A stretch of DNA of 64,000 nucleotides from Pseudobutyrivibrio xylanivorans. Lineage in GTDB: Bacteria > Bacillota > Clostridia > Lachnospirales > Lachnospiraceae. The notes below the pieces were generated by a model. The model saw nothing but the letters and a program-made list of their open reading frames with translations. It did not search any database and had not been told where the DNA came from. Numbering within the stretch: position 1 is the stretch's first letter; the number at the start of each line of letters is the position of its first letter. Positions 812 through 50,030 of this stretch are shown here, piece after piece. Location of the stretch: contig NZ_CP043028.1 in NCBI RefSeq assembly GCF_008935055.1, forward strand, positions 2,634,501-2,698,500, given 5' to 3'. The position numbers and the translations under genes were made by a program.

Positions 812-866
812 TTTAGATGAGGTGGTAGATGAGTTGTGTTATCTACGTCTTTAGATGAGGTGGTAG
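812..866 (+). repeat. 17-bp direct repeat pair upstream of polC
   Basis: TTTAGATGAGGTGGTAG occurs exactly twice, at 812-828 and 850-866, a period of 38 bp. The GGTGGT of the second copy forms the first helix of the polC leader RNA (859-864 with 1005-1010). The first copy could compete for the same partner. The repeat also resembles the CTAGATGATGTGGTGGTAG stretch upstream of nrdD. The exact repeat is seen; any operator or switching role is inference. Confidence 0.6.
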
Positions 867-1010
867 GTATCAAACTCTTGGGTCTCTGAATGAGGCATGT
901 AGCCGAAATATGATCCCAAAAGGATGATTGCTTTAGCAATCAACTTTTGTGGTCTAGTAAGCTTTAGCTTACATCTAGTAAGAGACCCAAGGCTTGTAAC
1001 CGTAACCACC
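859..1010 (+). promoter_or_regulatory. Structured leader RNA of polC (family 1, copy A)
   Basis: Three nested helices can be drawn. P1 is GGTGGT 859-864 with ACCACC 1005-1010. P2 is CAAAC 871-875 with GCTTG 992-996, with one mismatch. P3 is CTTGGGTCTCT 877-887 with AGAGACCCAAG 981-991, a perfect 11 bp. Inside P3 lie three small hairpins: 913-925, 926-941 and 957-972; the last two have the same TTTA loop. The outer frame, with CAANCTCTT on the 5' side and AAGGNTTGTANNNGTAAC on the 3' side, is shared with the leaders of smc and gpsA. The helix ends 26 nt before the polC ATG. It matches no named riboswitch I know. A cis-regulatory role is inferred from position and conservation. Confidence 0.62.
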
Positions 1011-1036
1011 GGACTTTGTTATTCGGAGAATTAGTT

Positions 1037-14761: not shown

Positions 14762-14910
14762 ATTTGGCGGCTTCTCATACTTGGTAAGCGCGAGCAGGGA
14801 AATGCCATGCCAAGCCTGGGAGGGACCTACACCGGGCGGGTGGGGCCCAGGCTTGAGTATGGAGGGTGCCCTGCGGGAGCATGGAAAACTGGGAGGCTGC
14901 CAAATTTTTT
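14762..14910 (+). ncRNA. Candidate small RNA or 3' UTR element (family 2, copy E)
   Basis: Four nested helices. P1 is ATTTGGCGGC 14762-14771 with GCTGCCAAAT 14896-14905, followed by a T-run, so P1 also acts as a terminator. P2 is GCAGGG 14794-14799 with CCCTGC 14869-14874. P3 is CCATGC 14805-14810 with GTATGG 14857-14862. P4 is CAAGCCTGGG 14811-14820 with CCCAGGCTTG 14846-14855. The loops between P1 and P2 carry AAGCGCGA and GGGAGCATG, which are identical in the second copy at 49835-49978. It begins 30 nt after galE. No open reading frame or named RNA class was recognised. Whether it has its own promoter is not clear. Confidence 0.68.
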
Positions 14911-20650: not shown

Positions 20651-20659
20651 CATAATCCA

Positions 20660-20746
20660 GCATGTAGCTGACAAGCTCTTGATGTTACTCAAGGAGAGCT
20701 TTCTATGCTCGACGGAGTAATATCAAGGCTTGTAAGTGTAACAGGC
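20660..20746 (+). promoter_or_regulatory. Structured leader RNA of smc (family 1, copy B)
   Basis: P1 is GCATGT 20660-20665 with ACAGGC 20741-20746, with one mismatch. P2 is ACAAGC 20671-20676 with GCTTGT 20728-20733. P3 is TTGATGTTACTC 20679-20690 with GAGTAATATCAA 20715-20726, 12 bp including one G-U. The apical loop has AAGGAG and GACG, as in the gpsA copy. Compared with that copy, P2 changes a G-C to T-A and P3 changes G-C to T-A and G-T to G-C, all keeping pairing. The element ends 29 nt before the smc ATG, and the downstream ACTAGGGGAATAATATG resembles the same spot before gpsA. Confidence 0.72.
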
Positions 20747-20775
20747 GGAATAATTATAAAAACTAGGGGAATAAT

Positions 20776-45857: not shown

Positions 45858-45867
45858 AGACTTTGCT

Positions 45868-45955
45868 GAAATCTTACGCTAACAATCAATATGAATTCTC
45901 CGCTCAGCTTAGAATGCTTCGCTTGAGAATTATATTAGATTGTTAGCTAGATTTC
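45868..45955 (+). promoter_or_regulatory. Long hairpin upstream of der (possible family 1 relative D)
   Basis: GAAATCT 45868-45874 pairs with AGATTTC 45949-45955. CTAACAATC 45879-45887 pairs with GATTGTTAG 45938-45946. An AT-rich stem with a bulge runs up to GAATTCTC/GAGAATT. AACAATC on the left and GATTGTTAGCT on the right resemble the same positions in the gpsA leader, but the GGTAG and GTAACC motifs are missing. A T6 run follows 6 nt later, so it could instead be a weak terminator of the upstream gene. Confidence 0.5.
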
Positions 45956-46007
45956 TCCGAGTTTTTTGATAGACGTAATTATATTTATTTGATAAGAGAG
46001 GTAACGT

Positions 46008-47995: not shown

Positions 47996-48009
47996 TGATT
48001 GATAAACTA

Positions 48010-48092
48010 GCTGGTAGGCAACAATCTCTTTATGTTACTCAAGGAGCCAATCTCGCGACGGAGTGACATAAAGGATTGTAGCTGTAACCAGC
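48010..48092 (+). promoter_or_regulatory. Structured leader RNA of gpsA (family 1, copy C)
   Basis: P1 is GCTGGT 48010-48015 with ACCAGC 48087-48092. P2 is ACAATC 48021-48026 with GATTGT 48074-48079. P3 is TTTATGTTACTC 48029-48040 with GAGTGACATAAA 48061-48072, a full 12 bp with one T-G. The loop holds AAGGAG and GACG. Junctions read GGTAGGCA on the left and AGCTGTAACC on the right. It ends 28 nt before the gpsA ATG. This is the most regular copy of the family. No intrinsic terminator is part of it, so translation control or RNA processing is likelier than attenuation. Confidence 0.74.
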
Positions 48093-48120
48093 GAGGCTTT
48101 TATAAAGACTAGAGGTATTT

Positions 48121-49834: not shown

Positions 49835-49978
49835 AAAAGCGCCTTGTAAATCTAGGCAAGCGCGAGCAGGAAGGCTCCATGCCAAGCTAGGAGGGCGCCC
49901 CGAAGGGGAAGGTTGCCTAGCGAAGGTATGGAAGGTGGCCTGCGGGAGCATGTAAAACTAATTTGGCGCTTTTTGTGT
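49835..49978 (+). ncRNA. Candidate small RNA or 3' UTR element (family 2, copy F)
   Basis: P1 is AAAAGCGCC 49835-49843 with GGCGCTTTT 49965-49973, perfect and running into TTTTTGTGTTT, a terminator. P2 is GCAGG 49866-49870 with CCTGC 49939-49943. P3 is CCATGCC 49877-49883 with GGTATGG 49925-49931. P4 is GCTAGG 49886-49891 with CCTAGC 49916-49921. AAGCGCGAGCAGG, CCATGCCAAGC and CCTGCGGGAGCATG are identical to copy E at 14762-14910, while P1 and P4 differ in sequence but keep pairing. It sits directly behind a coding gene, like copy E. Confidence 0.7.
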
Positions 49979-50030
49979 TTCAAATGTGTCTGAAAAGTGA
50001 AACTTTATTTAGTGGTACGTGAACCTATTG

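Follow-up and report, generated by a model that had tools for sequence, protein, structure and literature searches.

A dispersed structured RNA element of Pseudobutyrivibrio with an exchangeable inner hairpin and a largely site-owned outer stem

The short gap between plsY and gpsA in Pseudobutyrivibrio xylanivorans holds a strongly folding sequence, and the question raised by this locus is whether it belongs to the gene that follows it or to something of wider distribution. An initial annotation of the window (the whole stretch of DNA analysed, 64 kb long) had read it as a three-helix leader RNA shared by gpsA, smc and polC, responding to a growth-linked signal or, alternatively, representing a mobile structured RNA. 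The copies of the element found in the window, and their parts, were as follows (bit scores are those of the covariance model R1).

48006..48096, + strand: element copy between plsY and gpsA, structured element plus outer stem (76.2 bits, E 2.3e-20)
48010..48015, + strand: left arm of P1 (GCTGGT), the site-specific outer stem of the gpsA copy, with its partner ACCAGC at 48087-48092
48014..48088, + strand: inner unit GTAG...GTAAC of the gpsA copy, the approximate extent common to recent copies, read from the sequence (near-identical paralogues agree closely through P2 and less so at the variable P1 pairs)
20656..20750, + strand: element copy between rnc and smc (81.7 bits, fold z -7.4)
20664..20742, + strand: inner unit GTAG...GTAAC of the smc copy, read from the sequence, with its boundary taken from paralogue comparison
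855..1014, + strand: copy preceding polC, whose apical part holds a second, inserted repeat (66 bits, match length 160 nt)
908..978, + strand: nested second repeat (CCCAAAAGGATGATTGC..GCAATCAACTTTTGTGG) of the polC copy, with approximate ends and with similar inserts in other copies
45865..45958, - strand: antisense copy of the element, flanked by a DUF512/radical-SAM gene and by der, which both lie on the + strand (71.8 bits)

The gpsA and smc copies proved to be one structured element carrying the motifs initially described, as displayed by the sequences, by a pattern search and by folding. The core pattern ACTCAAGGAG-N(3-30)-GACGGAGT had two matches in the window and none in 100 shuffles, and the fold of the gpsA copy (48005-48120) reached -46.4 kcal/mol (z -7.1 against shuffles, close to the value of the smc copy). 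The proposed third copy at polC was also recovered, with an apical insert of about 70 nt. Names of the window genes were checked with Pfam (GpsA, SMC, PlsY, Der and PolC; RNase III precedes smc), and the outer stem ended 28, 29 and 26 nt before the ATG of gpsA, smc and polC, respectively, in agreement with the spacing of 26-29 nt reported at the outset. The list of three plus-strand copies was thus right as far as it went, but overlooked the fourth, minus-strand copy, which is antisense to both of its neighbours. The AAANACTAGRGG stretch did not turn out to be part of the element, as a nearly identical ribosome-site stretch stands at gpsA in genomes lacking the element there (L281, L297).

The consensus structure was obtained from 57 aligned copies, retained from 68 raw candidates after those outside 88-96 nt or folding more weakly than -30 kcal/mol were dropped. 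P1 consists of four variable pairs followed by G-C and U-A, and is topped by an asymmetric internal loop (one base on the left side, three on the right); P2, of 3 bp, follows, then P3 (CAAGC/GCUUG), a bulged U and finally P4, which is long and variable. In the same alignment (A1), the T and A of GTAG were invariant and both G's were conserved at 90% or more, while only the GT..AC ends were constant among copies. Many folds can be read as carrying purine mismatches (AA/GG, GA/GA) near the tip, followed by a short terminal stem. This apical module can be claimed only loosely: a strict regular expression fitted 46 of 151 copies from the genome and a looser one (GA..GA) 138.

The RNA structure was strongly supported. 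Pairing was kept in 97.1% of the alignment cells, and 18 of the 24 pairs showed double changes, in a structure derived from the same 57 sequences; double-change cells numbered 242, versus 53.8 (sd 9.6) after shuffling and 20-33 with one side slid. A DNA palindrome has no reason to tolerate G-U more than A-C, or vice versa. Among the 151 copies of the genome, G-U/U-G cells amounted to 135 and A-C/C-A cells to 18. Two pairs supplied 66 of the 135 G-U cells, and the ratio without both was 69 to 17; the copies were found with the model, which possibly favours G-U slightly, and nearly all of them scored far above threshold. This excess indicates that selection acts on the sense strand, and the initial view of an RNA selected for its shape is borne out by it and by the covariation. 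The element was also correctly described as belonging to no named class, since Rfam had no match for it: at gathering score, the window gave only a tRNA and 19 loci gave only one T-box, away from the element, and the best weak match, ssnA, reached 13.0 bits (cut-off 37.3, E 1.2).

Copies of the element were abundant throughout the chromosome. A pattern for the right arm, allowing at most three mismatches, gave 133 matches versus 2 for its reversed control, and the covariance model search yielded at least 140 matches in the genome (139 with E below 1e-9), a lower bound in that 150 of 1512 first-look candidates were scored. Three contigs make up the genome (3,584,491 bases, of which the first contig accounts for 3,412,851), and all 140 matches were on the chromosome. 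The two smaller contigs (C2, C3) held none of the 140, about 7 being expected from their length.

Within the genomes sampled, the element has been found so far only in the genus Pseudobutyrivibrio. With up to 146 candidates scored per genome, 28 of 29 genomes of the genus carried it, in 1 to 138 copies, and one had none. At stricter filters and 10 candidates scored per genome, matches were obtained in 10 of 392 genomes of the order sample, all Pseudobutyrivibrio (one of 173 genera, the 172 others giving none), and in 2 of 397 genomes of the family sample, namely the present genome and one of the same genus. The exact core pattern was absent from 298 other genomes of the family. Scanning one genome per species (84,980 species) returned 65 stretches, 64 titled Pseudobutyrivibrio and one Butyrivibrio fibrisolvens 16/4, with a pattern that demands canonical arms and would miss divergent relatives elsewhere. 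No match to the gpsA copy was detected in a plasmid collection, and no pattern match in viral contigs. The two genomes with the most divergent GpsA of the genus (G313, 68%, and G315, 75%; both less than 90% complete) carried 0 and 1 copies, respectively. An expansion of the family within the genus, after these two had split off, is suggested. The literature covered on repeats and structured RNAs of Pseudobutyrivibrio, Butyrivibrio and Lachnospiraceae, which left out most subscription papers, gave no account of the element; in its accessible text, the MA3014 genome paper mentions only CRISPR and protein repeats (PMC7523725).

Genomic context was examined for 151 copies in 110 fetched stretches, after removal of 16 opposite-strand shadows, with a crude gene calling (longest ORF first). 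Relative to the element, the genes before and after were in the same/same orientation for 97 copies, same/opposite for 28, opposite/opposite for 19 and opposite/same for 4, with 3 undetermined. When copies were placed by gap (136 of 151), 106 fell in tandem, 27 in convergent and 3 in divergent gaps, compared to 76, 7 and 31 among the remaining gaps (60 nt or longer) of these stretches and of the window; divergent gaps were therefore depleted (3/136 versus 31/114, p 3e-9). An ORF limit of 100 aa gave 113 tandem, 26 convergent and 3 divergent copies (142 placed) versus 68, 3 and 27. The 97 tandem-sense copies stood at a median of 23 nt from the previous stop and 25 nt from the next start.

The orientation of copies followed transcription. 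In tandem gaps, sense and antisense copies were in a ratio of 95:19 for leading-strand gene pairs and 2:0 for lagging ones (leading strand assigned from GC skew), while convergent gaps held 13 copies on the leading and 15 on the lagging strand. A strong sense bias in tandem gaps together with even numbers in convergent ones indicates that the bias tracks transcription and not replication; insertion guided by the replication strand, considered as a source of the orientation bias, was not supported by the 13 to 15 distribution. GC skew of the chromosome, seen in the fetched stretches only, took positive values only between about 2.2 and 2.8 Mb, which makes the two replication arms look very unequal.

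Some copies resembled terminators. A P1 of at least 8 bp followed by at least 6 T in 12 nt was found in 27 of the 151 copies, namely 16 of 28 convergent, 10 of 97 tandem-sense and 1 of 19 antisense ones, and from their sequence these long-P1, T-tailed copies resemble terminators whose loop houses the element.

These distributions bear directly on the proposal of a gene-specific cis-regulatory leader or riboswitch for replication, chromosome-folding and lipid genes, to which the regular spacing before gpsA, smc and polC had given some credit. The element is instead scattered regardless of gene starts over at least 140 places, mostly after genes or in terminators, and includes the 28 copies of convergent gaps and the 19 antisense ones; such scattering is an outcome that the initial annotation had itself named as refuting its proposal. 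Of 59 eligible tandem-sense copies, ten were taken at random, and the genes downstream of them were mutually unrelated, belonging to unrelated families or to none: they included adenylosuccinate lyase, glutamine synthetase, a KH-domain GTPase and Tex, and two had no Pfam match at E 1e-10.

Comparison of orthologous sites, with presence taken to include copies of different inside but same frame (P1, GUAG, GURAC), pointed the same way. Upstream of gpsA, the element was present by eye in 14 of 27 genomes of the genus and absent from 13; upstream of smc, it was present in 13 of 28, absent from 13 and reduced to deletion scars in 2 (L320, L321). Automated calling gave 13 sense copies of 27 at gpsA, 10 of 28 at smc, and 2 sense plus 2 inverted of 26 at ilvC, but missed clear copies (the smc and ilvC copies of the present genome were called as none), and the counts by eye were preferred. 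The inner helix and loop were moreover replaced between orthologues. The number of copies, their setting, the lack of kinship among the genes that follow them, the empty sites in related genomes and the lack of an Rfam match all speak against a riboswitch or gene-specific leader, and we give this reading hardly any credence; the growth-linked signal was not supported either, and at gpsA and smc the copies are best taken for ordinary family members lying between cistrons and not for sensors.

Behind ilvC, where data were available for 26 of 27 loci, related CCACC/GGTGG stems (one with a mismatch) enclosed different contents. Three surrounded a full sense element (L354, L361, L372) and four an inverted one (L356, L365 and the decayed L359, L360), while at least three held a short remnant (L368, L369, L371) and two a plain loop (L374, L378); most remaining loci had different terminators. 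Related terminator stems thus exist with and without the element, and the comparison gives no direction of change. The element was also inverted in what seems to be the same terminator stem between loci of related species (L262, L279) and of the present genome (L148, L193).

The outer stem and the inside of the element varied differently among copies. Paralogues with at most one inner mismatch formed 16 pairs in 11 small clusters, and outside the stretch used to select them their identity remained at 0.69-0.94 through P2 (0.40-0.61 for unrelated pairs). At the four variable P1 pairs, identity was 0.44-0.75 (mean 0.57), compared to 0.31-0.47 (mean 0.40) for unrelated pairs, and P1 is hence not fully independent of the inside. 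P1 differed in 14 of the 16 close pairs, with 111 of 112 P1 positions paired in those copies. Since GTAG and GTAAC are near-invariant across the family, the boundary of the copied unit can be placed only between P2 and the variable P1 pairs. The 14 orthologous gpsA copies showed the reverse arrangement: P1 was GCUGGU in 12 and GCUAGU in 2, while the insides differed widely: one loop type was common to seven, and others had different helices. Paralogues with the same inside but different P1, and orthologues with the same P1 but different insides, indicate that P1 is largely the property of the site and that the inside is exchangeable.

Some copies were nested within the helix of another copy. 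The second repeat seen at polC lay within at least seven copies, with similar inserts in L008, L017, L032, L105, L128 and L166, and sequence related to this short inverted repeat also occurred outside the element in L213 and L219. A search for empty sockets (P1-GTAG-GTAAC-P1') gave 8 candidates of at most 40 nt, no more than two control motifs yielded. One site (L248, 2578-2588) had collapsed to P1-GTAGCCGTAAC-P1', and another collapsed copy (L063, near 1500) kept its outer stem around little beyond GTAGCCGTAAC. Direct repeats seem to flank some gpsA copies, as seen without comparison to chance; among the sites compared, none displayed a de novo insertion, and target-site duplications were not established at any.

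Altogether, the element is a sense-selected hairpin family of gene ends and intergenic gaps, whose inside can be exchanged and whose stem belongs largely to the site. Its probable nature, which we favour with some reserve, is that of a high-copy dispersed hairpin RNA, restricted to the genus, in which an inner unit is copied into stems already standing at the ends of transcripts. The usual unit would be a bulged hairpin of about 75 nt, from GUAG to GUAAC, held by a short P1 belonging to the site. Insertion or templated conversion may carry the inner hairpin to new sites, with hairpins at transcript ends as presumed targets, and would rely on some trans-acting activity; the search, which covered the Y1_Tnp family, identified no gene for it. 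Once resident, an element with a long P1 followed by U's could form the tip of an intrinsic terminator, and one with a P1 of about 6 bp could act as an intercistronic hairpin stabilising or processing mRNA. The alternative of a mobile structured RNA initially mentioned was the closer reading. A bolder form of it, in which a mobile RNA unit of about 75 nt copies itself into pre-existing hairpin tips, terminators above all, is conceivable but rather doubtful. The route would be linked to transcription or run at the RNA level, the host stem would stay intact while one insert took the place of another, and the result would be a hairpin-in-hairpin element served by some putative enzyme and set apart from REP, MITE, group II intron and IS200 systems.

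Several observations could also be accommodated otherwise. Empty sites could be deletions, as displayed by the scars at smc and the collapse of L248; inverted copies could arise by inversion of a palindrome; and the 19 antisense copies argue against a strict sense-RNA function. The same RNA family could moreover be immobile now, having spread in the past and been homogenised by gene conversion or recombination, while P1 evolved at each site under pairing constraint. Conversion between copies would copy the inside and could likewise spare P1, the P1 of close pairs was somewhat more alike than that of unrelated pairs, and several copies at orthologous sites of other species had changed in sequence with pairing kept. 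The insides of some gpsA and smc orthologues, however, have little common sequence and would offer little homology for conversion, and we consider this explanation unlikely, if a serious one.

A REP/RAYT-like system, in which the 5' GTAG tag and hairpin would be acted upon, as single-stranded DNA, by a Y1 (HuH) transposase, appeared distinctly improbable. GTAG adjoining a hairpin, high copy number and intergenic location are indeed shared with REP/BIME sequences and their TnpA_REP (RAYT) (PMC3733652, PMC8266576), for which roles in termination and mRNA stability have been proposed (PMC3733652, PMC8266576). The present genome has three Y1_Tnp genes, and the three copy-richest genomes (138, 106 and 103 copies) all have a Y1_Tnp match. 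Such matches were nevertheless found in only 10 of 29 genomes of the genus; 18 of the 19 without them carry 1 to 97 copies, and some of these are rich in copies (G320, 97; G310, 73; G301, 70). Mean copy number was 71.7 with and 47.4 without Y1_Tnp, a difference that was not significant (Mann-Whitney p 0.15). The lack of replication-strand bias at convergent sites and the asymmetry of G-U over A-C also speak against it, as does the architecture of the unit: REPs are described as palindromes of 20-40 bp (PMC3733652), while the element is a bulged unit of about 75 nt with an internal loop, a pairing and covarying outer stem, a conserved 3' GTAAC (GUAAC in the RNA), sense-strand bias and nested copies. 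The element accordingly has the tag, copy number and location of REPs but neither their simple palindrome nor, judged from the genomes with Y1_Tnp matches, an associated TnpA_REP/Y1, and a REP/RAYT system was not supported by the Y1_Tnp distribution and orientation tests.

Other known repeats resembled the element in part. The bcr1-bcr18 repeats of the Bacillus cereus group are dispersed, MITE-like or RNA-structured, and located in UTRs and operon gaps, bcr3 being correlated with mRNA decay rate (PMC3446304). The likeness is drawn from their description, and a site-owned P1 with a copied inside, or placement in terminator stems, does not figure in the available text of that work (PMC3446304). 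Presence and absence at orthologous sites, expected of MITE/bcr1-type repeats, was observed at gpsA, smc and others. Stem-loop repeat families from 40 bacterial genomes are likewise dispersed in intergenic regions with a common predicted structure, many of them previously undescribed (PMC2267715); no Pseudobutyrivibrio family is reported in the accessible part of that survey. IS1397 and other insertion sequences target REP palindromes (PMC1525189), and would share with the element a palindrome as target, but are insertion sequences, compared to a unit of about 75 nt. Intrinsic terminators have in common with 27 of the 151 copies the long P1 and T-rich tail, but in these copies the loop on the stem is occupied by a structured RNA of about 70 nt, which can face either way; judged from sequence features, the definition of stem plus T run at a gene 3' end would apply to a subset only. 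For riboswitches and Rfam leaders, neither a match to a curated family nor a conserved leader of related genes was found.

The element is a structured RNA not listed in Rfam, present in dozens to more than 100 copies in most genomes of one genus and adjoining core genes such as smc, gpsA, polC and ilvC. It provides a countable case of a structured RNA family expanded within one genus, and hairpin-directed mobility becomes testable because the copied insert can be told apart from the stem that belongs to the site. In studies of expression, termination or RNA candidates in rumen Pseudobutyrivibrio, single copies could easily be mistaken for gene-specific leaders.

A second, larger structured repeat (AAGCGCGAGCAGG..CATGCCAAGC..CCTGCGGGAGCATG) was noticed in the window at 14766-14907 and 49836-49990, inside terminator-like stems. 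It had no Rfam match in the window, and the word AAGCGCGAGCAGG occurred in 11 of 386 fetched loci, some of which overlap.
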